Shown here: positions 32,305 to 53,644 of the stretch, one piece after another
Layout of the letters: the number at the start of each line of letters is the position of its first letter
Position numbering within the stretch: position 1 is the first letter of the stretch
Source: Nocardioides sp.
GTDB taxonomy: Bacteria; Actinomycetota; Actinomycetes; Propionibacteriales; Nocardioidaceae
Reading direction: 5' to 3'
Assembly: GCF_029937575.1 (NCBI RefSeq)
Contig: NZ_JAPYPS010000019.1
Location: 230 to 64,229 of the forward strand
Length of the DNA: 64,000 nucleotides
Notes under the pieces: generated by a model
Told to the model about the DNA's origin: nothing
Database searches by the model: none
Seen by the model: only the letters and a program-made list of their open reading frames with translations
Made by a program: the position numbers and the translations under genes

Positions 32305-32316
32305 ACTGTATACAGT
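32305..32316. promoter_or_regulatory. GntR/FCD operator, site 1
   Basis: ACTGTATACAGT is a perfect 12-bp palindrome, 34 bp before the start of the first decarboxylase-like gene. It matches six other sites in the island. Confidence 0.75.
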
Positions 32317-32349
32317 AAGCCATCATCACCTGACGAGAAGGACTCCGAG

Positions 32350-33330
32350 ATGGCTTTGCGCCTGCGTGCCAGTTTCATGCCCAACCCACGGGTGCTGCCG
32401 TTGCTCGACGTGACAGTCAGCCCCAGTGGGATCGACCTGGACTGGGAGACGGGTGATGCGGGCGACCTCCACGAGCACCACTTGCGCCACAGTGACTTCG
32501 ACGTCTTCGAGTTCTCGATCTCCAACTACCTGGTGACCCGGGACCGGCCGCTGGACCTGTGGGACTGGGTGATGATCCCGGTCTTCGCCAGCAAGGCGAC
32601 CCTCGGCATCAACACGTGGGTGCACCGTGACGCCGAGATCGACGGGGGCGCCGACCTCGCAGGCAAGCGGTTCGGGCTGCCCGACTACACCATGACGGCC
32701 GGGCTCTGGATGCGTGCCCAGCTCGAGACGCTCTGGGGAATCCGGTCCCGCGACATCGAGTGGTACCTAGGTCGCGAGGGGGAGCACAGCCACACACGAC
32801 AGCTGGGGTTCGCCGACGAGCCCCCTGCGGGTGTCAGCCTGACGTGGTCCAACCCGACAGAGCTCGACCGGCTGTTGCAGGAAGGGCGGGTCCACGCGGC
32901 CTTCGGATCGCTCGACGTGCCCCTCGACACTGCCAGCGGCCGGGTGCACCGACTCTTTCCCGATCGGGGGAGGGCGTTCTTCGGCGACTTCCAGGCGGCC
33001 GTCGGCTTCCTCCCGGTCAACCACGTCGTGCTCGTCCAGCGGCGAGTCGTGGAGCGCCACCCGTGGGTGGCTGAAGCGCTGCTGGATGCATTCGAACGCG
33101 CGAAGCGGGTCGCGTATCGCCGCGATCCGACCGCCGCCGGCGTCTTCCGTGGCGGCAACGACGACATGGACGCCCAGCGGGACATGTTCGGACCCGACCC
33201 GTTCCCCTACGGGCGTGTGGCCAATGTCGACATGCTCGAGATGGTCGCTCGACAGTCGCACGCGGACGGGCTCACCTCACGCCAGATCGACCTCGCGGAC
33301 TGCATTGCCGCCGGCGTGCGTGACGACTAG
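32350..33330 (+). CDS. 4,5-dihydroxyphthalate decarboxylase-like protein, copy 1
   Basis: A 326-residue protein with the type II periplasmic-binding fold but no signal peptide (MALRLRASFMPNPRVLPLLD). It is similar in layout to phthalate-pathway 4,5-dihydroxyphthalate decarboxylase: VFEFSISNYLVTRDRP, VFASKATLGINTWVH, DLAGKRFGLPDYTMTAGLWM, and NHVVLVQRRVVERHPWVAEA. It could be a cytosolic decarboxylase or a small-molecule-binding protein. Operator site 1 lies just upstream. It is a paralogue of the 41.5-42.6 kb protein (shared GKR-GLP-Y, HPWVA and ND-MDA-type tail regions). Confidence 0.72.
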   Translation: MALRLRASFMPNPRVLPLLDVTVSPSGIDLDWETGDAGDLHEHHLRHSDFDVFEFSISNYLVTRDRPLDLWDWVMIPVFASKATLGINTWVHRDAEIDGGADLAGKRFGLPDYTMTAGLWMRAQLETLWGIRSRDIEWYLGREGEHSHTRQLGFADEPPAGVSLTWSNPTELDRLLQEGRVHAAFGSLDVPLDTASGRVHRLFPDRGRAFFGDFQAAVGFLPVNHVVLVQRRVVERHPWVAEALLDAFERAKRVAYRRDPTAAGVFRGGNDDMDAQRDMFGPDPFPYGRVANVDMLEMVARQSHADGLTSRQIDLADCIAAGVRDD

Positions 33331-33392
33331 CCCGCCAAGAAGTTTGTGGCCAATCTGCCGATAGGTCTTGACTCGCGTAGCGACGTCAGTAA

Positions 33393-33404
33393 TCTGTATA
33401 CACA
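33393..33404. promoter_or_regulatory. GntR/FCD operator, site 2
   Basis: TCTGTATACACA contains the TGTATACA core at 33395-33402. It lies 124 bp upstream of the ABC transporter operon, downstream of a TTGACTC-like -35 element; its TATACA may form the -10. Confidence 0.65.
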
Positions 33405-33527: not shown

Positions 33528-34424
33528 ATGAGCGGCGCTTCGCCCCAGGGCACAGGAGACGTGACGCGGACCCCCGTCGTGGAGTTCAAGCACGCCGAGG
33601 TGACCTATCCCGGAAGGCAGGTCACCAGGCCTGCGGTGATCGACGTGGACCTCAGCGTCGGCCGCGGTGAGTTCGTCTGCGTCGTGGGCCCTAGTGGATG
33701 CGGCAAGTCCACGCTGCTCCACGTGTGCTCGGGGCTGATGAAGGTCTCCGACGGCGAGTTCTTGTACCTCGGGCAGGAGTGGAAGAAGCTGCACCCCGAC
33801 GTGGGCTATGTCACCCAGAAGGAGACGTTGCTGCCGTGGAAGACGGTGCTGGGCAACATCGCCCTGCCACTGAAGCTCAGGGGAGTGCCGAGGGCCGAGC
33901 GGAAGTCCCGCGCCGCCGACATGGCAGCTAGCGTCGGGCTCGGCGACTGGCTCGACCGCTACCCGCGCGAGCTGTCCGGCGGCATGCGGCAGCGGGTCCA
34001 GCTCGGGCGGACCCTGGTGACCCAGCCGACGCTCCTGCTGATGGATGAGCCGTTCGGAGCCCTGGACGCCGTGCTGCGGGTTCGGATGCAGGAGTTCTTG
34101 AAGTCGCGTATCCAGGGGACCGACCTCACCACGATCTTCGTAACTCACGATCTCAACGAGGCGCTGACCCTCGGCGACAGCGTCGTCGCCATGGCTGGGG
34201 CGCCCGGGACGATCGACCAGGTCGACCACCTCGACGATCTCCCACGCGGAGTGTCCCCTGTGGAGCTGCGACAGTCGCCGGCGTACGCCGAGCACGAGGC
34301 CCGGCTCTGGAAGGTGATCGCCGGCCATCTCAGCGACGACGGCAAGGCACTCGACAACGACTCGTTCGTCCGTCGCGACGCCGAGGCACTACGGGCGGCA
34401 GCCCAGGAAAGCAGAGGAGCCTGA
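33528..34424 (+). CDS. ABC transporter ATPase (nitrate/sulfonate/taurine type)
   Basis: A 298-residue SsuB/TauB-like ATPase. Walker A GPSGCGKST, Q-loop TQKETLLPW, signature LSGGMRQRVQLGR, Walker B LLLMDEPFGALD and H-loop FVTHDLNEAL are all intact. ATG 33528 is preceded by GAGGAGG. TGATG overlap with the permease gene. It is the energy subunit of an importer for an organic anion, presumably the growth substrate of this island. Confidence 0.92.
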   Translation: MSGASPQGTGDVTRTPVVEFKHAEVTYPGRQVTRPAVIDVDLSVGRGEFVCVVGPSGCGKSTLLHVCSGLMKVSDGEFLYLGQEWKKLHPDVGYVTQKETLLPWKTVLGNIALPLKLRGVPRAERKSRAADMAASVGLGDWLDRYPRELSGGMRQRVQLGRTLVTQPTLLLMDEPFGALDAVLRVRMQEFLKSRIQGTDLTTIFVTHDLNEALTLGDSVVAMAGAPGTIDQVDHLDDLPRGVSPVELRQSPAYAEHEARLWKVIAGHLSDDGKALDNDSFVRRDAEALRAAAQESRGA

Positions 34425-35287
34425 TGACCACCCACGCAGTTGCGCCGACCCGGACCGATCGTGGAGCGCCGCCGAAGAGACGCCCGGTGAAGAAGCAGCG
34501 CAGCCAACGCTCTGCCTGGGCGCTCGACATGCTCATGCTCTGGGGCATCCGCGCCGTCATCGTCGTGGCGATGCTCGGCCTCTGGCAGTTCTGCAGCGGT
34601 CGCGTCTTCCCGGTCTTCATCGTCTCCAGCCCCCAGCTCGTCTTCGAGCGGTTCGGGGACTTCATGGAGGGCGGACAGCTGCTGAGCGACCTCAGTTACA
34701 CGATGCGAGCGTGTCTGATGGGCTTCGCGATCGGGGCCGTGATCGGCAGCTCTCTCGGCCTGGCGTTCGGCATCTTCGAGTCGGTCGCCCGCACCATTCG
34801 GCCCTTCGCCGCGATGCTCTACTCGACGCCCAAGATCATGCTCGCCCCGCTGATCGTGGTCTGGTTCGGCGTCGACCTGCAGATGAAGGTCGTGATCTCG
34901 GCCTTCTCCTGCATGTGGGTGATCTTCTACAACGTCTGGAACGCCACCCGTGCCATCGACCGCAACCTGCTCGACCAGTTCCGGCTCATGGGGGCCAACC
35001 AGCGACAGATCATCGCCGGCTTGTACTTCCCCTCGGCGACCACGTGGCTGCTCACCAGCCTGCGCGTCGCCTTTCCCATCGCGCTGATCGGTGCAGTCGT
35101 CGGTGAGTTCGTCGCGTCCAACCAGGGTCTCGGCCACCTGGCACTCGACTCGGGCCACCGGTTCGACACAGCGGGCGTGCTCGTGGCGGTCCTGACCATC
35201 ACGTTCACCGCCATGCTGATCGACAGCCTATTGACCGCTCTGCAGCGCAAGGTAGCGCTGTGGCAAGGTGAAGGAGAACGAAAGTAA
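34424..35287 (+). CDS. ABC transporter permease (SsuC/TauC type)
   Basis: A 287-residue BPD_transp_1 permease with about six helices. A basic N-terminus (RRPVKKQRSQRS) precedes the first helix (AVIVVAMLGLWQFC). The ATPase-contact loop is the EAA-like stretch NLLDQFRLMGANQRQIIAGL. Coupled by TGATG to the ATPase and TAATG to the binding protein. Confidence 0.9.
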   Translation: MTTHAVAPTRTDRGAPPKRRPVKKQRSQRSAWALDMLMLWGIRAVIVVAMLGLWQFCSGRVFPVFIVSSPQLVFERFGDFMEGGQLLSDLSYTMRACLMGFAIGAVIGSSLGLAFGIFESVARTIRPFAAMLYSTPKIMLAPLIVVWFGVDLQMKVVISAFSCMWVIFYNVWNATRAIDRNLLDQFRLMGANQRQIIAGLYFPSATTWLLTSLRVAFPIALIGAVVGEFVASNQGLGHLALDSGHRFDTAGVLVAVLTITFTAMLIDSLLTALQRKVALWQGEGERK

Positions 35288-36357
35288 TGAACATCCCCAT
35301 CGCACGAGGCAGCCGTCGGTTCCGCCGAACGCTTGCCACCGTCGGCGCTCTCACGCTGGCGTCCGGGCTCCTGGCCGCTTGCGGAGGCAACGGCGACACG
35401 ATCGAGGCCAACGAGGAAGGCAACCGGGTCATCCGGGTCGCGGCACCGTTCGTGTCGACGATGAACTCCGCCTTCCTCTACGGAGCGGGCGCCGGCATCT
35501 TCGACAAGTACGACATCGAGACCGAGTTCGTGGAGATCGACGGTGCGCGAGGGCTCGCCGCGTCCATGGGCGGCAGCGTCGACATGGCGATCACCTCGGC
35601 GGTCAACCCGCTGGCCGCCCTTGAGCAGGACCAGGCGTTCTACGTCATCGCCCAGGTCGGCAACGGGTTCCCCGAGTCGGTCCTCATCGAGACGGAGGCC
35701 TACGAGAAGAGTGGACTTGACGACGACTCGACCTTCCAGGAGAAGATCGAGTTCCTCAAGGACAAGCCGTGGGGCGTCTCCAGCCCAGAGGGATCCTCGG
35801 TCTACATGGCGCGCTACATGTTCGAGCTGGCCGGGCTGTCGCAAGACGACTTCAACGCCAACTCCCTGGGCTCGAGCTCGGGCACGCTCGCTGCCCTGCA
35901 GGAGCAGAAGGTCGTCGCCGGCAGCATGGGATCGCCGTTGCCGCAGGTGGCCGAGGCCGAGGGTTACGCCAAGGTCTTCCTCGACGTCACTGCTGGCGAG
36001 GTCCCCGAGCTGCAGAACACGCTCACCTCGGTCGTCGCCGTCACGCCGGAGTTCTACGAGAACAACAGGGAGCTCGTCGACGACTTCCGGGAGGCACTGG
36101 CAGAGGCTCAGTCGCTCGTCTACAACGACTCGGAGACCGTCGACGAGTGGATGTACGAGAACCACTTCGACGGTTCTCCGAAGGAAGCCGTCCTGGCCGG
36201 TGTCGCCAGCCAGCGTGCGGGGGGTTCCATCGCCCAGCAGCCGGAGGTCGACCCCGAGGCAGCCGACAAGCTCGTGAGCTTCATGCGGGCAACGGGCCAG
36301 CCGATCACGGACGACTACAAGAAGATCTTCATGGACTTCCCGGAGTTCGAGGGCTGA
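35287..36357 (+). CDS. NMT1/SsuA-like ABC substrate-binding lipoprotein
   Basis: A 356-residue lipoprotein with lipobox LLAACGG near residue 30. The NMT1-type fold is indicated by RVAAPFVSTMNSAFLYGAGAGIF, GARGLAASMGGSVDMAITSAVNPLAAL, and KPWGVSSPEGSSVYMARYMFELAG. This family binds organic acids and sulfonates. It is the third gene of the importer operon, followed by two GC-rich hairpins. Confidence 0.88.
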   Translation: MNIPIARGSRRFRRTLATVGALTLASGLLAACGGNGDTIEANEEGNRVIRVAAPFVSTMNSAFLYGAGAGIFDKYDIETEFVEIDGARGLAASMGGSVDMAITSAVNPLAALEQDQAFYVIAQVGNGFPESVLIETEAYEKSGLDDDSTFQEKIEFLKDKPWGVSSPEGSSVYMARYMFELAGLSQDDFNANSLGSSSGTLAALQEQKVVAGSMGSPLPQVAEAEGYAKVFLDVTAGEVPELQNTLTSVVAVTPEFYENNRELVDDFREALAEAQSLVYNDSETVDEWMYENHFDGSPKEAVLAGVASQRAGGSIAQQPEVDPEAADKLVSFMRATGQPITDDYKKIFMDFPEFEG

Positions 36358-36395
36358 TCTCCTGACCGCACCATCTCGGGAGCCGAGCCAACGGT

Positions 36396-36503: not shown

Positions 36504-37961
36504 ATGATCGAGAACCCGGCCTACATCGACGGGCGCATGCTGATCAACGGAAAGCTCGTCGAGAGCACGACCGGCAACTGGCTGGAGTCCATCGACCCCG
36601 CCACCGAGCAGGTCATCGGTCGGGTGCCGGCCGCGGGACCCGAGGACGTGGCGATCGCCGTGGACGCGGCGCAGGACGCGCAGAAGGACTGGGCAGCGCT
36701 GTCGGTCATCGAGCGCGCCAAGATCCTCAAGCGGTACGCCGCGAGGCTCTCCGAGGAGGGCGAGCGGCTGCTCGCCGTCGAGGTCCGCGACACGGGCAAC
36801 ACGATCGCGAAGCTGCGCCACGACATCTCCAACGCCGTGCGGGGCATCGAGTACTTCGCCGGCCTCGGCACCGAGCTCAAGGGTGAGACCGTGCCCGCGA
36901 GCGGTGAGTTCCTGCACTACTCGGAGCACCAGCCGTACGGCGTGGTGGGGCGGATCGTCCCGTTCAACCACCCCATCCTCTTCGCGGCGAAGTTCGGCGC
37001 GCCGCTGATGGCCGGCAACGCGGTCGTGATCAAGCCCTCGGAGCAGTCGCCTCTCTCCTCGGCGCTGCTGGGCGAGATTGTCGCCGAGACCCTGCCGCCG
37101 GGAGTCGTCAACATCGTGACCGGTGACGGGCTGGGGGCGGGGCTCCCGCTGGTCCAGCACCCCCAGGTCAAGCGCATCTCCTTCATCGGCTCCGTCCCGA
37201 CCGGGATGGCCATCCAGCGGGCTGCGGCCGAGGTCGGTGTCAAGCACCTGAGCCTCGAGCTCGGCGGCAAGAACCCGATGATCGTCTTCGACGACGCAGA
37301 TCCGGAGACGGTCGCCAGCAACGCGATCGGTGGGATGAACTTCGGCTGGATGGGTCAGTCGTGCGGTTCGATGAGCCGCATCCTGCTGCCCGACGCCATC
37401 TACGACGAGGTCCTCGAGCGCATCGTGGCCAAGGCCGACGCGATCGCCCTGGGCGACCCGTCCCTGGAGGAGACCGGTGCGGGGCCGATGAACAACCGAG
37501 GCCAGCTGGAGAAGGCGCTGCACTACATCCAGGCGGGCAAGGACGACGGCGCGCGCCTCGTGTCAGGCGGCGTGCGACCCGACGGCGCCGAGTTCGAGAA
37601 GGGCTTCTGGCTGCGCCCGACAGTCTTCGCGGACGTGACGCCCGACATGCGCATCTTCCGCGAGGAGATCTTCGGGCCGGTGATGTCGGTGGTTCGCTAC
37701 AGCGGTGACTTCGACGAGGCGTTGGCGCTGGCCAACGACGTCGAGTACGGGCTGACTGCGTCCATCTGGACCAACGACCTGCGCAAGGCCAACCGTGCCT
37801 CCCGCGAGGTCCGCGCGGGCTACGTGTGGGTCAACGGCGTCTCGAGGCACTTCCTGGGGACGGGCTTCGGGGGCTACAAGAACTCCGGTATCGGGCGCGA
37901 GGAGTGCTTCGAGGAGATGCTGAGCTACACCGAGACCAAGACCGTCCACGTCCGCTACTGA
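36504..37961 (+). CDS. aldehyde dehydrogenase of the aromatic island, copy 1
   Basis: A 485-residue NAD(P)-dependent aldehyde dehydrogenase. Catalytic features: VPFNHP (Asn), VVIKPSEQSP, LELGGKNPMIVF (Glu) and MGQSCGSMSRI (catalytic Cys). The FNHP form and GQSCGS are unlike the two other ALDHs in the window, so it is not a recent duplicate. Ribosome-binding site GAAAGAGGA. The next gene, a ThDP enzyme, follows after 36 bp. A plausible task is to oxidise an aldehyde released by that enzyme or a ring-cleavage semialdehyde. Confidence 0.9.
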   Translation: MIENPAYIDGRMLINGKLVESTTGNWLESIDPATEQVIGRVPAAGPEDVAIAVDAAQDAQKDWAALSVIERAKILKRYAARLSEEGERLLAVEVRDTGNTIAKLRHDISNAVRGIEYFAGLGTELKGETVPASGEFLHYSEHQPYGVVGRIVPFNHPILFAAKFGAPLMAGNAVVIKPSEQSPLSSALLGEIVAETLPPGVVNIVTGDGLGAGLPLVQHPQVKRISFIGSVPTGMAIQRAAAEVGVKHLSLELGGKNPMIVFDDADPETVASNAIGGMNFGWMGQSCGSMSRILLPDAIYDEVLERIVAKADAIALGDPSLEETGAGPMNNRGQLEKALHYIQAGKDDGARLVSGGVRPDGAEFEKGFWLRPTVFADVTPDMRIFREEIFGPVMSVVRYSGDFDEALALANDVEYGLTASIWTNDLRKANRASREVRAGYVWVNGVSRHFLGTGFGGYKNSGIGREECFEEMLSYTETKTVHVRY

Positions 37962-37997: not shown

Positions 37998-39755
37998 GTG
38001 AAGCCCGAGAAGCTCGTCGTCCCCGTTACCGACAAGCCCGAGCTCGAGTTCGGCAGCGACGCCGTTGCCGAGCTCTTGAGCCGACTCGACCTGCCCTACG
38101 TCGCGATGGTTCCGGGGGCCAGCTACCGAGGACTGCACGACAGCCTCGTCAACTACCTCGGCAACACGGGACCGCAGATGATCGTGTGCCTCCACGAGGA
38201 GCACGCCGTGGCCATCGCCCAGGGCTATGCCAAGGTCACCGGCAGGCCGATGCTGGTGGCACTGCACGCCAACATCGGGCTCCTGCACGCGACGATGGCG
38301 ATCTACAACGCGTACGGCGACCGGGTGCCGATGGTGATCCTGGGCGCCGCGGGACCCGCTGACGCCGCCAAGCGACGTCCCTGGATCGACTGGATCCACA
38401 CCTCCGCCGATCAAGCCGCGCTGGTGCGCCACTACGTGAAGTGGGACGATCAGCCGGCCTCGGTACAGGCGGCGGTCGACTCGGTGATGCGTGGGTACGT
38501 GCTGACACAGGCCGAGCCTTCAGCACCCGTCTACGTGTGCCTCGACACCGAGCTGCAGGAGGACCCGATCGAGAGCCCGGTGACGATCCCCGACCCGGAT
38601 CGCTACCCGGTGCCGCTGCCGCCGGCACCCGACGCGGGCACGGTCGGTGACCTCGCAGCTGCTCTGCGAGACGCGGAGCGACCTGTGCTGATGATCGGGC
38701 GCGCCGGCAGGGACGAGGCCTCCTGGCACTCCCGGGTGCAGCTGGCTGAGCGATCCGGGGTCGCGGTCCTCACCGACCTGCGCAACCCCGCGGTGTTCCC
38801 CACCGACCACCCCGCGCACCCGGCCCAGGTGAGCGCAGGAAGGCTCAGCGCCACCGGACTCCAGCTGCTGCGCAGCGCCGACCTCGTCCTCGCCCTCAAC
38901 TGGACCGACCTGGCGGGTCCTCTGAAGGCAGCGTACGGCGACGGGCAGCGGCCGCGCGTCGTGAACGTACGCAACGTCAACGCGCTGCTCAACGGATGGA
39001 CCAAGGACCACTACGCTCCGGTCGCGACCGACCTGGAGATCACGGCCGGTCCCGACGAGCTGATCACCGCGCTTCTCGCCGAGCTCGGGGACGAGCAGCC
39101 ACAGCAGCGGGAGGCCTGGCCCCCGTCGTACCCGGATGAGGTGGCCGCACGTCCGCAGGTGGAGGGCGACCAGATCCTGATGCGTGATCTTGCCGAGGCG
39201 TTGCGAGACCTCGCTGACGACGGTGAGCTGAGCTACACCCAGTTGCCTCTGGGGTGGTCCGGGGCCGACGCCCGATTCGCGCACCCCTTGGACTTCCTGG
39301 GCCGTGACGGAGGCGGCGGCCTCGCCTCGGGCCCGGGCATCGCCGTGGGCGCAGCCCTGGCGCTGGACGGCACCGGGAGGCTGCCGGTTGCAGTTCTCGG
39401 GGACGGTGACTACCTCATGGGGAGTTCCGCGCTGTGGAGCGCGGCGCACTATCGCCTGCCCCTGCTGGTGATCATCGCCAACAACCGGAGCTATCACAAC
39501 GACGAGAAGCACCAGGCGACGGTGGCCGAGCGCCGCGGTCGTCCGGTCGAGAACCGGATCGTCGGTCAACACCTGCGCGATCCCGACCCGGACCTGGCCG
39601 GCATCGCCCGGGGCCACGGGCTCACGGCGTACGGACCGGTGATCGAGCCCGACGAGCTCCTGCTCACGCTGGGCAAGGCGCTGGACGAGGTGCGGGCCGG
39701 CGGCACCGTGCTGGTCGACGTGCGGGTCAACCCGCACGGCTACGGCAAGGGCTGA
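37998..39755 (+). CDS. thiamine-diphosphate-dependent decarboxylase/lyase
   Basis: A 585-residue enzyme of the acetolactate synthase/benzoylformate decarboxylase superfamily. The N-terminal PYR domain contains the catalytic Glu in CLHEEHAVAIAQGYAKVTGR; a central domain spans about 200-345; the C-terminal PP domain has GDGDYLMGSSALWSAAHY and NNRSYHND for Mg-ThDP. Start GTG 37998. A 2-oxo-acid decarboxylation yielding an aldehyde for the preceding dehydrogenase is a reasonable inference. Followed by a perfect palindromic terminator. Confidence 0.85.
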   Translation: MKPEKLVVPVTDKPELEFGSDAVAELLSRLDLPYVAMVPGASYRGLHDSLVNYLGNTGPQMIVCLHEEHAVAIAQGYAKVTGRPMLVALHANIGLLHATMAIYNAYGDRVPMVILGAAGPADAAKRRPWIDWIHTSADQAALVRHYVKWDDQPASVQAAVDSVMRGYVLTQAEPSAPVYVCLDTELQEDPIESPVTIPDPDRYPVPLPPAPDAGTVGDLAAALRDAERPVLMIGRAGRDEASWHSRVQLAERSGVAVLTDLRNPAVFPTDHPAHPAQVSAGRLSATGLQLLRSADLVLALNWTDLAGPLKAAYGDGQRPRVVNVRNVNALLNGWTKDHYAPVATDLEITAGPDELITALLAELGDEQPQQREAWPPSYPDEVAARPQVEGDQILMRDLAEALRDLADDGELSYTQLPLGWSGADARFAHPLDFLGRDGGGGLASGPGIAVGAALALDGTGRLPVAVLGDGDYLMGSSALWSAAHYRLPLLVIIANNRSYHNDEKHQATVAERRGRPVENRIVGQHLRDPDPDLAGIARGHGLTAYGPVIEPDELLLTLGKALDEVRAGGTVLVDVRVNPHGYGKG

Positions 39756-39831: not shown

Positions 39832-39849
39832 CTCGCGTGGGCATCGAGC

Positions 39850-42651: not shown

Positions 42652-42663
42652 ACAGTATACACT
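42652..42663. promoter_or_regulatory. GntR/FCD operator, site 3
   Basis: ACAGTATACACT (AGTGTATACTGT on the minus strand) lies in the divergent promoter. On the minus strand it includes TATACT, a good -10 for the decarboxylase/monooxygenase operon. Confidence 0.7.
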
Positions 42664-42722
42664 TTGCTACGCCTCGAGCGACAGTGTGAAATCTGTCTTG
42701 ACGTGGCGATAGTCTGCAATAC

Positions 42723-44857: not shown

Positions 44858-44869
44858 ACTGTATACGGG
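44858..44869. promoter_or_regulatory. GntR/FCD operator, site 5 (autoregulatory)
   Basis: ACTGTATACGGG sits immediately before a TAGGAT -10 box (44872-44877) whose transcript would start at or near ATG 44884. A repressor bound here would block its own promoter. Confidence 0.72.
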
Positions 44870-45641: not shown

Positions 45642-45655
45642 AACTGAATACAGTT
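45642..45655. promoter_or_regulatory. GntR/FCD operator, site 6
   Basis: AACTGAATACAGTT has perfect AACTG/CAGTT arms and a core GAATAC in place of GTATAC. It lies 37 bp before ATG 45692. TGAATACAGT may be an extended -10. Confidence 0.68.
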
Positions 45656-45691: not shown

Positions 45692-46522
45692 ATGCAATAC
45701 GGCAGGGACGCAGGAGCGCGAGCTCGGTTCGCGACACTGGGAAGTAGCTTCACCTTCGCCGGCCAGGCAACCGAGGCTTTGCTCCGGCACCGCTCGGCAC
45801 CCGACGCGCAGTGCGACTACTTCCCGACGATGGATGCGGTCGCCGAGGCTGTCCTGGACGGCGTGGTCGACGCTGGGGTGTTGACCTCGGAGACCTCCCG
45901 CACGGCCTGCACGGACACCGCCGCGAGGATCCTGGCAGGCGATCCGCTCTTCGTCGTCGACGAGATCGTGGTGCCCTACCGGTGCGCGCTCCTCGGTCGC
46001 CCCGGCACTCGGATCGACCAGGTCACGCACGTGGGCGGTCACGGATCCATCCGTCAGTGCGCGGAGTTCCTGCGCACCCGGATGCCTCACGCGAGTGCGG
46101 CCATGCACGAGCAGAACTCCGTCGTGGCTGCACAGGAGGTGCTCGACGGGGACGGGACGACAGCGGTCATCGCCACCGAGGCGCTGGCGCACCACCTCGG
46201 TCTTGAGGTCCTCGAGACCGAGGTGGACGGTGGAGCCCTCGGCGGATGGTGGGCCCTCGCCGCCCGACCCTCGCGACCGACGGGCGCCACTCACGTCGCG
46301 CTGCGAGTCGTCGGCTCGGCGGCGCTCACCCGCTCCCTGGCCACGTTGTCGGGCAGCGGCCTTCAGGTCCGCACCGTCACGAACCAGCCGACCGGCGACC
46401 TCTTCAACTATCGCTACCTCGTCACCGCCCGCACCGTCGACGACCGGGCCGTCCCGGACGACGTCCTCGATGCCGTGGGCGACCACCTCGTCGGGGTGTT
46501 CTCGACGACCACCGTTCGCTGA
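45692..46522 (+). CDS. prephenate dehydratase-like protein lacking the TRF motif
   Basis: A 276-residue protein laid out like a monofunctional prephenate dehydratase: FATLGSSFTFAGQATEAL, VDAGVLTSETSR, VGGHGSIRQCAEFLRTRMP, VIATEALAHHLGLEVLE, then an ACT-like C-terminus (VTNQPTGDLFNYRYLVTA). The catalytic TRF motif expected after the second lobe is replaced by GGWWALAARP, so dehydration of prephenate is unlikely. It may be a ligand-binding or altered lyase protein. ATG 45692 is chosen; GTG 45686 is in frame. It heads the six-gene operon to 52.6 kb. Confidence 0.7.
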   Translation: MQYGRDAGARARFATLGSSFTFAGQATEALLRHRSAPDAQCDYFPTMDAVAEAVLDGVVDAGVLTSETSRTACTDTAARILAGDPLFVVDEIVVPYRCALLGRPGTRIDQVTHVGGHGSIRQCAEFLRTRMPHASAAMHEQNSVVAAQEVLDGDGTTAVIATEALAHHLGLEVLETEVDGGALGGWWALAARPSRPTGATHVALRVVGSAALTRSLATLSGSGLQVRTVTNQPTGDLFNYRYLVTARTVDDRAVPDDVLDAVGDHLVGVFSTTTVR

Positions 46523-46574
46523 CCATCCATCACGGCCACCCTCCCGGAAGGCCGAGCCCGATCAAGGAGCAGAC

Positions 46575-47537
46575 ATGACCGACTTCGAAGGTGCCGACCT
46601 TCTGCAGAAGTACATCGACGCGTGCAGCAACTGGGGCAGGTGGGGCGGCGACGACCAGCTCGGCACGCTCAACCACATCGGACCCGCACAGCTCCGGGCT
46701 GCCGCAGCACTCGTGGAGCACGGCATCAGCGTCAACGTATCGCTGCCTTACGACCAGCGGGGCCCTCAGACGGGCAGCCTGCGGGCCAACCCCCGCAACA
46801 TCATGACCGCCACCGGCGCCGATCACGTTGCGGGGGCCCAGGAGATCCTGCCGGCCGGTTTCGGCCCGGCGAAGGGCTACGGGCGCTCTGACGACATCCT
46901 GATCGTTCCCAACCAGGCGGGCACCCAGTGGGACTCCCTCTCGCACATCTTCTGGAAGGGCAAGATGTACGGCGGCCACTCGGCCGGCCTGGTCTCGTCG
47001 GCGGGTGCTGCCCGCAACGGGATCGAGAACTACGCCGGCAAGCTGGTGATGCGCGGCGTCTTCCTGGACGTCGCACGTCACCTGGGGGTCGAGGCTCTCG
47101 AGCCCGGGCACGCGATCTCGGTGGAGGAGCTCGAGGCCACCGCCGCGGCGCAGGGCGTCGAGATCCGCACGGGGGACTGCCTGCTCATCCGCACCGGTTT
47201 CCTCGAGGCACGGCGCGAGGCGTGGGGGGACTACGCCGGAGGCGCTTCGCCGGGGATCTCGCTGCACACCGCGCCCTGGATCCACGAGAAGGAGATCGCG
47301 GCCGTGGCCTCGGACACGTGGGGGGTCGAGGTGCGGCCCAACGAGGTGGACTGCTTCCAGCCCTTCCACGTGGTGGCGCTGGTGCACATGGGCCTGGCGA
47401 TCGGCGAGATCTTCGACTTCGCCGAGCTTGCGGAGACTTGCGCCCGCCTCGACACCTACGAGTTCCTGTTCGCCGCGCCCGCCCTGCCCATCACCGGGGC
47501 CTCCGGCTCGCCGGTCGCCGGCGTCGCAGTCCTGTAG
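46575..47537 (+). CDS. cyclase-family (kynurenine formamidase-like) hydrolase
   Basis: A 320-residue metal-dependent hydrolase of the cyclase family. The metal-site region QAGTQWDSLSHIFWKGKMYGG is the long-form version of the family's HxGTHxDxPxH motif, with Gln in place of two His. DVARHLGVEALEPGHAISVEEL and RTGDCLLIRTGF are also typical. Related enzymes hydrolyse formamides, lactones or ring-derived amides. Ribosome-binding site AAGGAG. Confidence 0.82.
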   Translation: MTDFEGADLLQKYIDACSNWGRWGGDDQLGTLNHIGPAQLRAAAALVEHGISVNVSLPYDQRGPQTGSLRANPRNIMTATGADHVAGAQEILPAGFGPAKGYGRSDDILIVPNQAGTQWDSLSHIFWKGKMYGGHSAGLVSSAGAARNGIENYAGKLVMRGVFLDVARHLGVEALEPGHAISVEELEATAAAQGVEIRTGDCLLIRTGFLEARREAWGDYAGGASPGISLHTAPWIHEKEIAAVASDTWGVEVRPNEVDCFQPFHVVALVHMGLAIGEIFDFAELAETCARLDTYEFLFAAPALPITGASGSPVAGVAVL

Positions 47538-47550
47538 AGAGAAGGAAGAG

Positions 47551-49032
47551 ATGACCATCAGTCCCGAGAAGTACCAGACCCCCACGCTGCCCGCGGTGCC
47601 GACCGGCCTGCTGATCGGTGGATCCTGGCGGCCGGCCACCGGTGGTGCCACCATCGCCGTCGACAACCCGGCCCCCGGGGAGATCCTCGCCGAGGTCGCG
47701 GACGGCACCGAGCAGGACGGGGTGGAGGCGCTGCGTGCGGCGGCCGCCGCCCAGGGTGCCCTGCACGCGATGACGCCCACCGAGCGCGCCCGACTGTTGC
47801 GTCGGGTCGAGACCGAGCTGCGAGACCGGATCGAGGAGTTCGCGCTGCTCATCACCGCGGAGATGGGCAAGGCCCTTCCTGAGGCCCGGGCCGAGGTGAA
47901 CTACTCCGCCGACTTCTTCGGGTGGTTCGCCGACGAGGCCGTCCGGGTTGCGGGTGACTATCGACTCTCCCCGAACGGGTCGACGCGCATCCTCGTCTCG
48001 CACAAGCCGGTGGGTCCCTGCCTGCTCATCACGCCGTGGAATTTTCCCCTGGCCATGGGGGCGCGCAAGATCGCCCCGGCCCTCGCCGCCGGCTGCCCCT
48101 CGGTCCTCAAACCCGCCGGTCAGACGCCGCTGAGCAGCCTCCTGCTGGCCGAGGTGATCGAGTCGGCCGGCGCGCCGGCCGGAGCCGTGAACGTCGTGAC
48201 CACGTCGCGCTCGGGGGCGGTCACGACGGCGATGATCGAGACCGGCCTGGCGCGCAAGCTTTCCTTCACCGGATCCACGGCCGTGGGCAAGATCCTGCTC
48301 GGGCAGTGCGCGCGCCACGTCATGCGTACCTCGATGGAACTGGGCGGCAACGCGCCGTTCCTGGTCTTCGAGGACGCCGACCTCGACGCAGCCGTCGAGG
48401 GTGCGATCGTCGCGAAGATGCGCAACGTCGGCCAAGCCTGCACCGCCGCGAATCGCTTCATCGTCGCGGCCGGCATCGCGCAGGACTTCACCACACGCCT
48501 GGCCGCCCGCATCGCCGCGATGGAGTCGGGCCCGGGCTGGGTCGAAGGAGTCGAGGTCGGCCCCCTGGTCGACGACGCCGCCGTCGCCAAGTTCGAGGAG
48601 CTGCTCGCCGACGCCGTCGCCAAGGGCGCCACGGTCGTCACCGGTGGGGGCGCGAGCTCGGGTCGCTTCGTCGAGCCGACCGTCCTGGCCGACGTCGCTG
48701 AGGGCAGCGCAGTCCTGGCCGAGGAGATCTTCGGCCCGATGGCACCCGTGGTGACCTTCACGAGTGACGCGGAGGCCGTGCGGCTCGCCAACGACACCGA
48801 CTACGGCCTGGTCAGCTACGTCTACACCCGCGACCTCGACCGGACTCTCGCGATGGTCGATCATCTGCACACCGGCATGGTCGGCATCAACGTGGGCGTG
48901 GTGTCCAACGCCGCCGCCCCGTTCGGCGGGGTCAAGGAGTCGGGACTCGGCCGCGAAGGCGGCTTCGAGGGCCTCTCCGAGTACCAGGACACGACGTACG
49001 CCGCGTTGCCCGCCCCGAGGCACAGCCCGTGA
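47551..49032 (+). CDS. succinate-semialdehyde-type aldehyde dehydrogenase, copy 2
   Basis: A 493-residue NAD(P)+ aldehyde dehydrogenase of the GabD-like group: LITAEMGKALPEARAEVNY, LLITPWNFPLAMGARKIAPAL, MELGGNAPFLVFEDADLD and NVGQACTAANRF (catalytic Cys), C-term FGGVKESGLGREGG. It likely oxidises a C4-C6 semialdehyde from ring cleavage. AGAAGGAAGAG provides the ribosome-binding site; GTGA overlap with the next gene. Confidence 0.88.
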   Translation: MTISPEKYQTPTLPAVPTGLLIGGSWRPATGGATIAVDNPAPGEILAEVADGTEQDGVEALRAAAAAQGALHAMTPTERARLLRRVETELRDRIEEFALLITAEMGKALPEARAEVNYSADFFGWFADEAVRVAGDYRLSPNGSTRILVSHKPVGPCLLITPWNFPLAMGARKIAPALAAGCPSVLKPAGQTPLSSLLLAEVIESAGAPAGAVNVVTTSRSGAVTTAMIETGLARKLSFTGSTAVGKILLGQCARHVMRTSMELGGNAPFLVFEDADLDAAVEGAIVAKMRNVGQACTAANRFIVAAGIAQDFTTRLAARIAAMESGPGWVEGVEVGPLVDDAAVAKFEELLADAVAKGATVVTGGGASSGRFVEPTVLADVAEGSAVLAEEIFGPMAPVVTFTSDAEAVRLANDTDYGLVSYVYTRDLDRTLAMVDHLHTGMVGINVGVVSNAAAPFGGVKESGLGREGGFEGLSEYQDTTYAALPAPRHSP

Positions 49033-49892
49033 CCCGGGTCGTCGGCCTGCGCCAGCACGGCGCCGTGTCGGTCGGTGTTCTGCGATCCGATGGCGTCCGG
49101 GTCCTCACCTCGCTCGAGGAGTTCTGGCAGGCACCGTCGTGCTGGCTCAGCAGAGTCGGCGAGGCGGACTCATCGCGAGCATTGGTCCCGACCGCCGAGG
49201 TCGAGCTGGTCCCGCCAGTGCTCCCCGGTGCGCGGGTGCTGTGCATCGGCCTCAACTACCTCAAGCACGTGGCCGAGGGCTCCTACGCCGGGGACGGGGT
49301 GCCGAAGCACCCGACGATCTTCGCGCGCTGGACCAGCTCGCTCTCGGTCGGGGGCCAGGCCATCCCGGTGCCGCCCGACGAGGACGGCCTCGACTGGGAG
49401 GGCGAGGTCGTGGCCTACATCGGAGAGACCCTGGTCGATGCCAGCCCCGAGGAGGCGCTGGCCGCCGTGGTCGGCTACTCGACCTTCAACGACGTGACCG
49501 CGCGCCGGGCGCAGAAGCTCACCTCCCAGTGGATCCTGGGCAAGAACGCCGATCACTCCGGTCCGTTGGGTCCGATCGTCCCGGCCGGAGAGGTGGGGGA
49601 TCTGCGTGACGGGCTCGAGGTCGTGACGCGGGTCAACGGTGAGGTTGTGCAGCAGGGCCGCACCGACGAGATGGTCTATACGGTCGGTGACACGCTGTCG
49701 CTGGTCAGCAGAACCATCACCTTGCGACCCGGCGACCTCCTGGCCACCGGCACCCCGTCGGGGGTCGGCTATACCCGGACCCCGCCGTGGCTGCTGAACG
49801 CCGGCGACGTCGTCGAGGTCGAGGTCGAGTCGCTGGGCACCCTCACCAACGCGATCGTCAGGCACGAGGCGCGGCGACCGGAGGAGCGTTGA
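49029..49892 (+). CDS. fumarylacetoacetate hydrolase-family enzyme
   Basis: A 287-residue FAH-family protein. Metal ligands are in GLDWEGEVVAYIG (Glu pair) and YSTFNDVTARRAQ (Asp); also GKNADHSGPLGPIV and DLLATGTPSGVG. Family members hydrolyse or decarboxylate acylpyruvates and oxalocrotonates in meta-cleavage routes. GTG start overlapping the dehydrogenase stop; its own stop overlaps a TTG start. Confidence 0.88.
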   Translation: MTRVVGLRQHGAVSVGVLRSDGVRVLTSLEEFWQAPSCWLSRVGEADSSRALVPTAEVELVPPVLPGARVLCIGLNYLKHVAEGSYAGDGVPKHPTIFARWTSSLSVGGQAIPVPPDEDGLDWEGEVVAYIGETLVDASPEEALAAVVGYSTFNDVTARRAQKLTSQWILGKNADHSGPLGPIVPAGEVGDLRDGLEVVTRVNGEVVQQGRTDEMVYTVGDTLSLVSRTITLRPGDLLATGTPSGVGYTRTPPWLLNAGDVVEVEVESLGTLTNAIVRHEARRPEER

Positions 49893-51070
49893 CGTCCACG
49901 GGCCCGCTGTCGGGCGTGCTGGTGGTCGACCTCTCCCGCGCCCTGGCAGGGCCGCACGCCACGATGATGCTGGCCGACCTCGGAGCCCGCGTGATCAAGG
50001 TCGAGTCCCCCGATCGTGGCGACGACACCCGCGGGTGGGGTCCTCCGTTCGTCGACCCGCCCCACGGTGAGCGGGAGTCGACGTACTTCCTGTCGGCCAA
50101 CCGCAACAAGGAGTCCATCTGCCTCGACCTGAAGGATGGCGACGACCTGCGCGTGCTGCTCGACCTGGTCTCGCGCGCCGACGTCGTGGTCGAGAACTTC
50201 CGCACCGGGGTGATGGAGCGACTGGGCCTGGACCCGGGCATGTTGAGCGCACTCAACCCGCGACTCGTCCAGCTGTCGATCAGCGGGTTCGGGCACGACG
50301 GACCCGAGGGTGGCCGCGCCGGCTACGACCAGATCGCCCAGGGCGAGGGTGGTCTGATGTCGATCACAGGTCCGACACCCGACCAGCCGCAGCGGATGGG
50401 TGTGCCGATCTGCGACCTTCTCGCTGGCATGTACGGCGCCTATGGCGTCCTCGCAGCGCTCCACCACCGGGAGACCACCGGACAGGGCCAGGTCGTGCGC
50501 ACCTCCTTGCTCGCAGCGGCGGTCGGTGTGCACGCCTTCCAGGGCACCCGATGGACGGTCGGCGGTCAGGTCGCGCGGGCCGACGGGAACCACCACGGCG
50601 CGATCGCGCCGTACGGACTGTTTCGTTGCGCCGACGGCGCCGTTCAGCTCTCGGTCGGCAGCGAGGCGCTGTGGCTGCGCTTCTGTGCGGGCTTCGATCT
50701 CGAGGCGACGGATCCGGCCTTCGCCACGAACAGCGACCGGGTGGTCCGGCGTGACGCCCTCGTGGCCGTGATCGAGCGTGCCTTCGCCTCCTGGGAGGCC
50801 GTTGACCTGTTGGACCGCCTCGCCGAGCTGGGTGTCCCCGCCGGACGGGTGCGTTCGATAGACGAGGTCTACGAGTGGGATCAGACGCGAAGTCAGGGAC
50901 TGGTCGTCGATGTGCAGCACAGCACGCTGGGTGGCCTTCGTCTGCCCGGACCGCCGCTGCGCTTCTTCTCCCCGGAGGGCGACGAGCGAACGCCTGGAGA
51001 CCACGCTGCCCCGCCTGTCCTCGACGAGCACGGGGCGTCCATCCGAGCGTGGCTCGCGTCGCCGCGATGA
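49889..51070 (+). CDS. CaiB/BaiF family (class III) CoA-transferase
   Basis: A 393-residue family III CoA-transferase. SGVLVVDLSRALAGPHATMM, ADLGARVIKVESPDRGDDTR, ANRNKESICLDLK and ISGFGHDGPEGGRAGYD are family hallmarks; the catalytic Asp is in GVPICDLLAGMYGAYG. It would activate a pathway acid as its CoA ester. The start is TTG 49889, overlapping the previous stop (TTGA); no better start lies near the conserved N-terminus. Confidence 0.88.
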   Translation: MTSTGPLSGVLVVDLSRALAGPHATMMLADLGARVIKVESPDRGDDTRGWGPPFVDPPHGERESTYFLSANRNKESICLDLKDGDDLRVLLDLVSRADVVVENFRTGVMERLGLDPGMLSALNPRLVQLSISGFGHDGPEGGRAGYDQIAQGEGGLMSITGPTPDQPQRMGVPICDLLAGMYGAYGVLAALHHRETTGQGQVVRTSLLAAAVGVHAFQGTRWTVGGQVARADGNHHGAIAPYGLFRCADGAVQLSVGSEALWLRFCAGFDLEATDPAFATNSDRVVRRDALVAVIERAFASWEAVDLLDRLAELGVPAGRVRSIDEVYEWDQTRSQGLVVDVQHSTLGGLRLPGPPLRFFSPEGDERTPGDHAAPPVLDEHGASIRAWLASPR

Positions 51071-52572
51071 GCGCCGCCGACTTCATCGACACCCTCGTGG
51101 ACGAGGGTTCCTTCCGCTCCTGGGACCTGCCGATCGACCTGCCGGACGACCCCGACTACGCGGCCGCGCTGCGGCGCGCCCACGCCCGCAGTGGCGCCGA
51201 CGAGGCGGCTGTGACGGGTCGAGCACGGATCGGCGGTCGGGACGTCGCACTCGTGGTCGGCGAGTTCGGATTCCTGGGCGGGTCGGTGGGCGCGGCCGCG
51301 GCGCTCCGGGTGGTCGAGGCGGTGCGTCGGGCGACCCGCGAGAGGCTGCCACTGCTCGCGGCACCGGCATCGGGCGGCACCCGGATGCAGGAGGGGACTC
51401 CAGCCTTCGTCAAGATGATCGACCTCGCGCGAGCCGTCGCGGCCCACAAGGGGTCCGGCCTGCTGTATGCCGTGTACCTCCGGCACCCCACGACTGGCGG
51501 CGCGCTGGCCTCGTGGGGGTCCCTGGGACAGGTGACCTTCGCCGAACCCGGGGCCTTGATCGGGTTCCTGGGCCCGTCGGTCTTCGAGGCACTGAAGGGC
51601 TCGCCGTTCCCCGAGGGGATCCAGACGGCGGAGAATCTGCATCGGGTGGGGGTCGTGGACGGCGTGCTGTCGGGCGGAGAGCTCGCGGCGGTGATGAGCG
51701 ACCTGCTTCGCCATGTCGGCGCGCCCGGTCTGGTCGCGGACCGGAGTGGTTTGCGGGACGGAGCCGGGGCCTCGGCCGAGCCCCCGGTCGAGGCCTGGAC
51801 CTCGATCCAAGTCACCGCGTCAGCACGGCGCCCGGGCGCTCGCGAGTTGTTGAGCACGACCGCCAGGCGCGTCGTGAAGCTGTCGGGCACCGGGCAAGGA
51901 GAGCGCGGCGCCCGTATCCTGGGGTGCGTTGCGGAGGTCTGCGGCGTCTCATGTGTCGTGGTCGCGCAGGACCGCGCCGCGCAGGAGGCGCTCGGGCCGC
52001 TGGGGCCTGCGGACCTGCGTGCCGCCCGCCGGATGGTGCGTCTGGCCGACGAGCTCGGGCTGCCTGTGCTGACGATCATCGACACCTCCGGCGGCGACCT
52101 GTCGGTCGACGCGGAGGAGGGAGCGATCGCAGGAGAGATCGCACGACTCCTCCAGGAGCTCGTCAGCACCCGGGTCCCGACCGTCTCGATCCTGCTGGGC
52201 GAGGGATGCGGCGGGGCTGCCCTGGCGCTGCTTCCTGCCGACCGCGTCGTGGCCGCCCAGCACGCGTGGCTCTCGCCCCTGCCGCCGGCCGGTGCCAGCG
52301 CGATCCTGCACGGCACCGGGGAGCGGGCAGCGGAGCTTGCCGCCCACCAGCGGGTGAGAGCGCACGACCTGCTCGCCGACGGGATCGTCGACGTGCTCGT
52401 GGCCGAGGACCCGCCGGCAGACGACGACCCGCAGGGCTTCTGCCGCCGGGTCGCCGGCGCTGCCGCCGATGCCCTGGTGCGTGAGTTGGCCGGGGAGCCG
52501 CAGCCGGCCGATCCGGGCCTGTCGGCAGGGCCAGCCGGGTCGGGCGAACGCGCCGACGCGACGGTCAGCTGA
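51067..52572 (+). CDS. fused beta-alpha acyl-CoA carboxyltransferase
   Basis: A 501-residue protein joining an AccD-like N-terminal half (RARIGGRDVALVVGEFGFLGGS, PASGGTRMQEGTPAFVKM) to an AccA-like C-terminal half (LPVLTIIDTSGGDLSVDAEE, LLGEGCGGAALALLPADRVV). No zinc-finger Cys is seen at the N-terminus. No biotin carboxylase or biotin carrier gene is in the window, so it either uses partners encoded elsewhere or acts as a decarboxylase or hydrolase on a CoA ester. ATGA-coupled to the CoA-transferase. Confidence 0.8.
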   Translation: MSAADFIDTLVDEGSFRSWDLPIDLPDDPDYAAALRRAHARSGADEAAVTGRARIGGRDVALVVGEFGFLGGSVGAAAALRVVEAVRRATRERLPLLAAPASGGTRMQEGTPAFVKMIDLARAVAAHKGSGLLYAVYLRHPTTGGALASWGSLGQVTFAEPGALIGFLGPSVFEALKGSPFPEGIQTAENLHRVGVVDGVLSGGELAAVMSDLLRHVGAPGLVADRSGLRDGAGASAEPPVEAWTSIQVTASARRPGARELLSTTARRVVKLSGTGQGERGARILGCVAEVCGVSCVVVAQDRAAQEALGPLGPADLRAARRMVRLADELGLPVLTIIDTSGGDLSVDAEEGAIAGEIARLLQELVSTRVPTVSILLGEGCGGAALALLPADRVVAAQHAWLSPLPPAGASAILHGTGERAAELAAHQRVRAHDLLADGIVDVLVAEDPPADDDPQGFCRRVAGAAADALVRELAGEPQPADPGLSAGPAGSGERADATVS

Positions 52573-52611
52573 TCTCTCGGCCGACCGTCGCGCGGGATGG
52601 AGCAGGGTCGT

Positions 52612-53550
52612 TCAGGCGATCGAGTTGGCGATCCGGGCCAGGCCCTCGTCGCTGGAGGTGACGCCCATGGCGGCGTTCGTCAGGCGCTTGATCTCCTCGC
52701 GGGAGGTGCCCTGCATCCAGACGTCGCGGCTGATCGGGGTGGCCTCGAGGATGCGCGCCCGGTGGTCGGCGTCCACGATGTCGTGCTCGGTGCAGAACTC
52801 GAAGGAGATGCCGGCGGCCGGGTCGGCGATGTAGACGCTGATGGAGCCCGAGGCGGCGTGACGCAGGACGTCCTTCTGCAGGGTCGCCCCCCTGCTGGTT
52901 GCGATGTTGCGGGCTCGCATGACGTCGTCGATGCTCTCGACCAGGATGCAGAAGTGGTCCATCGTCGCGGCCCGCTCTGGACTGCCGCGGAAAATGCCCA
53001 TGGAGTGGTGGTAGTTGTTGCCAGAGCGCATGAACACGGCGTTGCGCTTGATCCAGTCGGACGCACGGAAGCCGAGCACCCCGCTGTAGAAGTCGTGCGC
53101 GGCGACGGGATCGGTGGAGAACCAGACGGCGTGCAGCATCTCCTGCATCCGTACCAGGTTCTGACCTGGCTTCGTACCGCGCGACAACATCTGCGTGTAG
53201 ACGTCGATCTCGAGGCCGTCGGGGTCGGTGAAGCGGACGCCTCGGTCGATGGCGTCGCCGTCGAGGTCGCCGAACTCCTCGTAGGCGATGCCCCGCGCAT
53301 CCAGGCGGTCGGTCACGTCGCCGAGGGCGTCGTCGCTGCCGAGTTCGAAGCCGACCCGGAGCAACCCGCGACGCTGGTCCTGCTGCTCCAAGCGCAGCCA
53401 GTGATGGTCGTAGCCTCCACCGAGGAAGGCGGTCCCAGCCGAGGAGTCGTGCACCGTGAGGTGGCCGACGTCGCGATAGAAGTCGGCTGATCCTGCAACG
53501 TCTGGCACGCCCATCACCACATAGCCGAGTCGCTCTACTGCCTGATCCAT
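52612..53550 (-). CDS. two-domain extradiol ring-cleavage dioxygenase
   Basis: A 312-residue type I extradiol dioxygenase (VOC fold, BphC-like). Expected iron ligands are present: His140 (EMLHAVWF), His199 (TMDHFCILVES) and Glu251 (ISFEFCTEHD), plus active-site His near 181-182 (NNYHHSMG). It should cleave a catechol-type ring next to its hydroxyls. ATG 53550; 53565 is an alternative. Convergent with the carboxyltransferase gene; operator site 7 lies upstream. Confidence 0.86.
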   Translation of the reverse strand: MDQAVERLGYVVMGVPDVAGSADFYRDVGHLTVHDSSAGTAFLGGGYDHHWLRLEQQDQRRGLLRVGFELGSDDALGDVTDRLDARGIAYEEFGDLDGDAIDRGVRFTDPDGLEIDVYTQMLSRGTKPGQNLVRMQEMLHAVWFSTDPVAAHDFYSGVLGFRASDWIKRNAVFMRSGNNYHHSMGIFRGSPERAATMDHFCILVESIDDVMRARNIATSRGATLQKDVLRHAASGSISVYIADPAAGISFEFCTEHDIVDADHRARILEATPISRDVWMQGTSREEIKRLTNAAMGVTSSDEGLARIANSIA

Positions 53551-53632
53551 TCCCGTGCCCTCCACGCCGTGGTGAATTCCTCGGCTCGTCGATCTTTGTC
53601 TCCCAGCAGCGCTGGGACTCTGCTCAAGAGAC

Positions 53633-53644
53633 TAGTGTATACAC
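53633..53644. promoter_or_regulatory. GntR/FCD operator, site 7
   Basis: AGTGTATACACT is a perfect 12-bp palindrome 83 bp upstream of the extradiol dioxygenase start, marking the right border of the regulon. Confidence 0.75.

Follow-up and report, generated by a model that had tools for sequence, protein, structure and literature searches.

Seven palindromes in an 18-gene catabolic island of Nocardioides sp. as probable operators of its GntR/FCD regulator

The 64,000-nucleotide stretch of Nocardioides sp. DNA analyzed here (RefSeq assembly GCF_029937575.1, contig NZ_JAPYPS010000019.1, positions 230 to 64,229 of the forward strand; hereafter the window) contains a 21-kb catabolic island of 18 genes, which we describe together with a short palindrome, TGTATACA, that recurs ahead of its genes, and a GntR/FCD regulator gene that lies among them. 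The island encodes functions for uptake, a Pht5-like decarboxylase, an FAD ring hydroxylase and an extradiol ring-cleavage dioxygenase, as well as aldehyde dehydrogenases and hydrolase, aldolase-like and CoA-transferase functions. These gene functions make an aromatic acid the probable substrate, likely degraded via ring hydroxylation and extradiol cleavage. Strand and spacing suggest seven transcription units, each with one palindrome 16–125 bp ahead of its first gene: SBP1; the ABC importer with an aldehyde dehydrogenase and a thiamine diphosphate (ThDP) enzyme; a leftward pair, SBP2 and an FAD monooxygenase; an ornithine-cyclodeaminase-family (OCD) gene with a DHDPS-family gene; the GntR gene; six genes from a prephenate-dehydratase-like (PDT) gene to a carboxyltransferase gene; and a leftward extradiol dioxygenase gene. 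The features are as follows, with scores from the matrix described below.

32305..32316: candidate operator 1, ACTGTATACAGT, its 8-mer ending 35 bp ahead of the SBP1 start; matrix score 24.7
32350..33330, + strand: SBP1, periplasmic-binding fold, without evident signal peptide (by eye); 62–64% identical copies in three relatives
33393..33404: candidate operator 2, TCTGTATACACA, ahead of the ABC importer unit; matrix score 27.6, the window's best
33528..36357, + strand: ABC importer (ATPase 33528-34424, permease 34424-35287, binding protein 35287-36357, the last with a lipoprotein-like start by eye); Pfam; kept in three relatives
36504..37961 and 37998..39755, + strand: aldehyde dehydrogenase and ThDP-dependent (benzoylformate-decarboxylase-like) enzyme, putatively in the ABC importer's unit; kept in three relatives
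39850..42557, - strand: SBP2 (41511-42557) and FAD aromatic monooxygenase (39850-41514), a pair seen only in the window's island
42652..42663: candidate operator 3, ACAGTATACACT, ahead of the SBP2/FAD monooxygenase unit; matrix score 15.8
42698..42725, + strand: sigma-70-like promoter TTGACG-16-TACACT, its -10 overlapping the edge of candidate operator 4
42723..42734: candidate operator 4, ACTGTATACACT, ahead of the OCD/DHDPS unit, 71 bp from candidate operator 3; matrix score 19.1
42793..43779 and 43812..44828, + strand: OCD-family protein and DHDPS-family aldolase-like protein; Pfam
44858..44869: candidate operator 5, ACTGTATACGGG, its 8-mer ending 16 bp ahead of the GntR start; matrix score 14.9
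44884..45561, + strand: GntR/FCD regulator, 225 amino acids, proposed repressor; PF00392, PF07729
45626..45654, + strand: sigma-70-like promoter TTGCCA-17-TACAGT, overlapped by candidate operator 6
45643..45654: candidate operator 6, ACTGAATACAGT, ahead of the PDT-led six-gene unit; matrix score 25.3
45692..52572, + strand: predicted six-gene unit (PDT-like 45692-46522, cyclase 46575-47537, SSADH-like dehydrogenase 47551-49032, FAH-family 49029-49892, CaiB CoA-transferase ~49889-51070, carboxyltransferase 51067-52572)
52612..53550, - strand: two-domain extradiol (VOC) dioxygenase; 70–74% identity in three relatives
53634..53645: candidate operator 7, AGTGTATACACT, ahead of the leftward dioxygenase gene at the island's right end; matrix score 26.1

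At one mismatch or fewer, TGTATACA has seven matches in the window (8-mers starting at 32307, 33395, 42654, 42725, 44860, 45645 and 53636), against a mean of 1.03 in shuffled windows, none of which (0/100) reached seven. Four are exact and the other three are the one-mismatch forms AGTATACA, TGTATACG and TGAATACA; GTATAC is intact in six, with the site at 45645 reading GAATAC. The sites are GT/AC-box palindromes of the FCD operator type, in which the boxes lie 2–3 bases apart. The matches are confined to 32.3–53.7 kb, the other genes of the window having no site, and all seven are intergenic, at 35, 125, 96, 60, 16, 39 and 85 bp, in order, from start codons of our choosing. A preliminary description of this DNA had located the same palindromes to the base in five cases; the other two, given as 45642 and 53633, are off by a single base (the 12-mers start at 32305, 33393, 42652, 42723, 44858, 45643 and 53634). 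The 12-mer ASTGTATACAST at three mismatches or fewer gave 10 matches over the window against 12.26 expected; this lack of excess indicates that the signal resides in the core, and the 12-mer was dropped as a measure.

A promoter scan of 32.2–45.8 kb yielded the two sigma-70-like promoters listed (0.6 expected by shuffling), both overlapping or abutting a site; in each, the -10 falls inside the palindrome or at its edge. Scanning of 45.8–54.7 kb detected none, so that the 53634 site is without a scan-supported promoter, and the remaining -10 assignments were made by eye. With all seven sites intergenic and both scanned promoters at a site, the earlier statement that each palindrome lies in a promoter region, often on a -10, holds. 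This placement also bears on the direction of control, as the island GntR protein, acting through the same operators, might activate the units, or activate some and repress others. We think this unlikely. The sites at 33395 and 42654, 125 and 96 bp ahead of start codons, would suit activation, and some FCD regulators do activate: CitO gives protection at -41 to -65 and at -51 to -74 in the promoters that it induces with citrate (PMC4746285). However, the site is at the -10 in both scanned promoters, the position used by the repressor Atu1419 (see below), and the ABC promoter, where a TTGACA-like -35 is followed by TAATCT 16 bases on (assigned by eye), would have its site at the -10 as well.

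Within the genome, the sites are placed almost exclusively in the island. The 4,351,021-base assembly (131 contigs, 99.48% complete) has four exact copies of TGTATACA, all four inside the island. The 14-mer WNSTGTATACASNW has seven genome places at one mismatch or fewer, six of them in the island; the island site at 42654 needs two mismatches, a level at which the genome has 55 places. Similarly, six of the nine distinct places with the 7-mer TGTATAC are in the island, and the three others have matrix scores of 11.7 and 0.9 or, for the third, fall outside the top two 16-mers (8.5 and 6.3) of a 3-kb locus; TGTATAC lies inside a GC-typical frame at C93:34869 and in no frame passing our filter at C44:24073. 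The one non-island place at a single mismatch from the 14-mer, C83:10950, is inside a 500-amino-acid open frame and was taken as chance. Across 97 other genomes of the genus we counted 30 exact copies of TGTATACA in 24 genomes, with at most three per genome, and at this rate the probability of four exact copies in a given 21-kb stretch is ~2e-13.

A matrix of 16 columns was built from 13 sites, all from the three relatives described below, which makes its scan of the window out of sample; of the 14 matches with one mismatch in those relatives, it omits Acrocarpospora TGTATCCA at contig position 140951, which breaks the core. The seven window sites rank 1–7 (27.6 to 14.9), followed by a score of 11.5 inside the FAH gene and then 5.8, and no hit reaching 14.9 was found in 439,770 positions of same-genus background DNA. 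Chance origin of the seven sites is rejected by the shuffles, the genome and genus counts, and the matrix test. A+T-rich words do cluster in promoters of a window with 70% G+C, but it is scarcely credible that the palindromes are chance -10-like words of this kind, or a mobile palindromic element, with no dedicated binding protein: TGTATACA is otherwise absent from the assembly and rare in the 97 genomes, the flanks of the seven sites differ beyond a few bases, and variant sites are kept at the corresponding promoters of other genera. The proposal that the palindromes mark a regulon was to be abandoned if the motif proved equally common away from promoters, and it withstood our pattern searches of the genome, which are narrower than a full matrix scan.

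The island and its sites are conserved together in three other genera. A scan for relatives of the GntR protein, covering genomes of 84,980 species, returned eight loci, of which three are close orthologues (71–73% identity), from Acrocarpospora macrocephala, Nonomuraea sp. and Frankia sp. (L017, L018 and L019), and five have 28–34% identity. Nonomuraea has 16 of the 18 island genes (58–81% identity), including all six of the six-gene unit; Frankia has 15 (45–83%), five of them from that unit, together with a diverged protein of the FAH family (34%), these six not all in one block; and Acrocarpospora has 10, on a contig that stops 1.7 kb past the GntR gene. The OCD (62–64%) and DHDPS-family (77–81%) proteins are present in all three, and the order of units is shuffled among islands. 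A PDT protein (45692-46522) inside a catabolic island is also seen in two of the relatives, the contig of the third stopping earlier.

All three relatives have sites ahead of OCD, the ABC ATPase and GntR, and in Acrocarpospora and Nonomuraea a site also precedes SBP1 (TGTATACT, equivalent to operator 1) and the OCD site sits between OCD and a divergent dioxygenase. Nonomuraea has a further site ahead of PDT, where the TGAATACA form of operator 6 is kept, and Frankia has one ahead of a ferredoxin reductase gene leading to CaiB, carboxyltransferase and SBP1. In 4/4 genomes the GntR promoter carries the variant TGTATACG, and GTAATCTGTATACAC stands unchanged at the ABC promoter of all four. Because the same sites precede the same genes in three distant bacteria, the palindromes are very probably sites of the island's GntR protein. 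Among 118 genomes of the genus, the regulator was found (at E 1e-40) only in the window's own genome, so the island is accessory and probably transferred. Protein orthologue searches of 396 genomes of the phylum, 118 of the genus, 341 from the family of one relative and 35 from the order of another revealed no fifth island (the phylum and family searches scored 7–8 first-look candidates per genome, so orthologues could be missed), and plasmids yielded no match at E 1e-20.

The regulator belongs to the FCD subfamily, with an N-terminal GntR winged-helix domain (PF00392, residues 22-82, 54.3 bits against a cut-off of 27) and a C-terminal FCD domain (PF07729, residues 92-212, 56.6 bits against 24.3; above cut-off as well at G000:C97:45386-45748 in the count of FCD genes over the genome). 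The recognition segment, LGVSRVPVREALRRLQAERLL, is identical in 4/4 orthologues. A predicted model (six-row alignment, mean pLDDT 83.7) has six C-terminal helices (87-110, 114-127, 135-150, 155-171, 178-197 and 200-223), and six versus seven such helices separates the VanR group from the FadR group. Residues D142, H146 and H188 are invariant in 6/6 aligned sequences and H210 in the four orthologues, making them candidate metal ligands by alignment; the FCD metal site also includes an Asp. In the accessible parts of the sources, FCD proteins are given "seven or six" C-terminal helices (PMC4494728), and one FCD structure has coordinating His148, His196 and His218 (PMC4746285). The nearest solved folds include McbR, PmiR and Atu1419; structure comparison gave Z scores of 16.8 for PmiR, 16.0 for Atu1419 and 14.1 for FadR (1hw1), with large root-mean-square deviation (rmsd) throughout because the domains move. 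PmiR of Pseudomonas aeruginosa (7xp0/7xp1) also tops the Foldseek list and, by sequence, matches better than any other solved structure (E 2e-22), although identity is only ~30%; the literature searched held no paper on its operator.

Atu1419 of Agrobacterium fabrum is an FCD repressor of the VanR group from a hydroxycinnamate region, crystallised on ATGTATACAT, within which lies the core TGTATACA; among characterized operators this is the nearest to the window's sites. According to the available portion of its description, its operators overlap -10 boxes and occur in its own gene's promoter region, altering the operator G and C abolishes binding, and tetramers were seen looping DNA between palindromes 190 bp apart (PMC7797058). 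The window system resembles it in type of repressor, aromatic-acid setting, operator core and operator position, as well as in fold (rmsd 7.5 over 205 residues to 6za3_B), and the G-reading Arg45 of Atu1419 aligns with R56 of the invariant SR of the window protein. In contrast, identity is ~26% over the fold, the base-contacting Thr46 is Val57 in the window protein, the genes and the flanking operator bases are others, and Atu1419 has three perfect palindromes and one degenerate one in two promoter regions (same partial source) versus the window's seven over 21 kb.

The wider subfamily offers similar parallels. The FadR-subfamily operator consensus is TKGT/ACMA, typically with a 3-nt gap, and a 2-nt gap is given for groups such as GntR, HpxS, HypR, MdcY, PrpR and UxuR (PMC4494728, available part). 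The window palindrome has the GT and AC boxes with a gap of 2 (GT-AT-AC), though the base before the T is mostly C/G and the site at 45645 (TGAATACA) breaks one GT box. HypR of Streptomyces coelicolor is likewise an actinobacterial GntR-like repressor with several dispersed sites, one of which covers its own -10, and with weaker repression of its own gene, but its operator is CTNTGC(A/C)ATGTCAC, not TGTATACA, and its genes serve L-hydroxyproline use (PMC6608401, as far as accessible). Elsewhere in the partly available literature, TGTATACA occurs within the scrambled control of a TetR operator (PMC7858072), and GTATAC occurs in a primer of the CitO paper (PMC4746285). Given the general FCD operator and the Atu1419 precedent, the operator class is a known one and the window system a further member. 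No description of the regulon or island was found in the literature searched, whose coverage was mostly without subscription journals.

We also asked where else in the genus the palindrome occurs. The 30 exact sites in 24 same-genus genomes in which the regulator was not found define 29 regions, which we compared with 20 control regions chosen, non-randomly, by offset on the same contigs. A GntR/FCD-like gene was present in 12/29 site regions and 0/20 controls (Fisher P 0.0006), eight of the 12 within 3 kb of the site. The count is 10/29 at E <1e-20, and 7/26 after by-eye collapse of apparently orthologous neighborhoods (L073/L076/L083 and L079/L100). Calls were made with a six-sequence profile, not a curated FCD one, and those in L081 and L097 are weak or far; five site regions are shorter than 16 kb (contig ends or choice), and the L066 region is 20 kb. 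FCD genes number ~9 per genome (188 matches in 21 genomes), a base rate of 3.2% per 16 kb (hand-summed, with 4.5 Mb per genome assumed). Since control placement followed offsets, some of the regions are orthologous to one another and 17/29 contain no GntR/FCD-like gene in the fetched stretch, the association of TGTATACA with FCD regulators across the genus is suggestive only. In L066 (genome G060), exact TGTATACA at 8859 and 10826 stands on either side of two genes, one for an FCD protein and one for a transporter. Their neighbors are a CaiB gene, another FCD gene and an ABC importer of the branched-chain type, and this is likely a second regulon of the same kind. In L084, matrix hits of 24.9 and 20.7 (the latter TGCATACA) lie near 8001, and a GntR/FCD-like gene stands 2.8 kb from the exact site.

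Together, we consider it highly probable that the GntR/FCD protein encoded at 44884-45561 has the seven palindromes as its operators, and that it acts as a local, autoregulated, acid-released repressor of the island. The preliminary description had read operator, regulator and regulon extent from the same DNA, a proposal now supported by genome specificity, genus controls, conservation in three genera and the out-of-sample matrix. Several observations weigh against this reading. The window sites at 42654 and 44860 score far under the best matrix score; in Frankia no site directly precedes SBP1 or PDT, which would fit longer operons in that genome; and exact TGTATACA also lies outside the island in the relatives (5/7 copies in Acrocarpospora, 4/6 in Nonomuraea and 1/4 in Frankia). 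To these may be added the 17 same-genus regions noted above, with no GntR/FCD-like gene in the fetched stretch, some of which have high-scoring sites (at 8001 in L087, 20.5; L088, 19.1; and L091, 18.6). In addition, the genome has four other FCD genes, and the argument for GntR binding and island repression is drawn from sequence.

Those additional genes raise the question of whether the sites are island operators bound by another FCD protein, or by a regulator of another family, with the island GntR sensing something else. Five FCD matches in the window's genome and operator types common to FCD proteins (PMC4494728, in the part available) would allow for this. We nevertheless judge it very unlikely, since the island GntR is the only regulator recognized among the genes common to the islands and its own promoter has a site in 4/4 genomes; moreover, the occurrence of islands in four different genera makes a shared outside regulator unlikely.

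If the island GntR is indeed the binder, the FCD protein would bind as a dimer in which each TGTA half-site is read by one winged helix-turn-helix. Placed over or beside the core promoter of all seven units, including its own gene, the dimer would block RNA polymerase without substrate, binding its own promoter via the lower-scoring, conserved variant site. The island's substrate, or a carboxylic-acid intermediate derived from it, may then fill the FCD domain, leading to release and turning all units on together. The 71 bp between the SBP2 and OCD promoter sites might, speculatively, leave room for two dimers or for one tetramer holding both.

The extent of the regulon had been described as bordered by the sites, and this stands insofar as they bound the island and other window genes have none; at the right-hand end, a haloalkane dehalogenase gene (53723-54646) requires a narrower reading. 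The site at 53634 ends 79 bp ahead of this gene, whose product is above the cut-off of a haloalkane dehalogenase subfamily, and a bidirectional operator would bring it into the regulon and imply a halogenated substrate. This extension seems improbable, as the dehalogenase adjoins trpS in three of six other same-genus genomes with a 69–74% identical copy (G009, G013 and G004), none of which has a regulator match, and the stretches fetched from the three relatives yielded no dehalogenase; trpS was not found beside the gene in the other three genomes with a copy. From the trpS neighborhood in 3/6 genomes, the island most likely ends near 53.65–53.72 kb, with the dehalogenase looking like native flank and the 53634 site most likely controlling the leftward dioxygenase gene.

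Gene functions partly distinguish the island's versions in the four genera. SBP1 resembles 4,5-dihydroxyphthalate decarboxylase (PDB 9jp7, E 1.7e-34). Two His and a Glu of the dioxygenase, the extradiol His-His-Glu metal-ligand set, align with 1han and 1mpy; we take these residues to be the iron ligands of 1han. In 3/3 relatives the island is accompanied by a Rieske oxygenase large subunit (78–90% mutual identity), a small subunit, a ferredoxin-like protein and a reductase, and the window matches none of these. For the large subunit the closest relatives are benzoate, anthranilate and phenylpropionate dioxygenases, with scores well under their cut-offs, and the window's genome has only a 31% identical match to it, on another contig. 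The window's island has instead the FAD monooxygenase and SBP2, a second Pht5-like protein with 29–30% identity to the relatives' SBP1, under their own operator; the fetched stretches of the relatives gave no orthologues of this pair.

It is conceivable, though we put it forward tentatively and as somewhat doubtful, that TGTATACA is a common operator word of a set of FCD regulators in these actinobacteria and that the island is a portable aromatic-acid module with an exchangeable ring-activating front end, belonging to an undescribed pathway. If so, the island would define a catabolic pathway so far undescribed. Independently of this, the sequence, under strong controls, allows operator, regulator and regulon to be recognized, providing a handle on what appears to be an undescribed aromatic-acid pathway, and the island is an example of a catabolic module swapped while regulation stays. 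The palindrome TGTATACA may also help link other FCD regulators of the genus to their regulons.

Two smaller observations concern the Rieske genes of the relatives. In Acrocarpospora (L122, 12952), the degenerate site TGTATCCA lies just ahead of the Rieske large-subunit gene. Beside the Rieske genes, all three relatives also encode a small conserved protein (79–92 amino acids, VGNEFASxEISVDT), which has no match in the window:

L121, 4451-4726: small conserved protein
L122, 10864-11142: small conserved protein
L044, 12839-13078: small conserved protein

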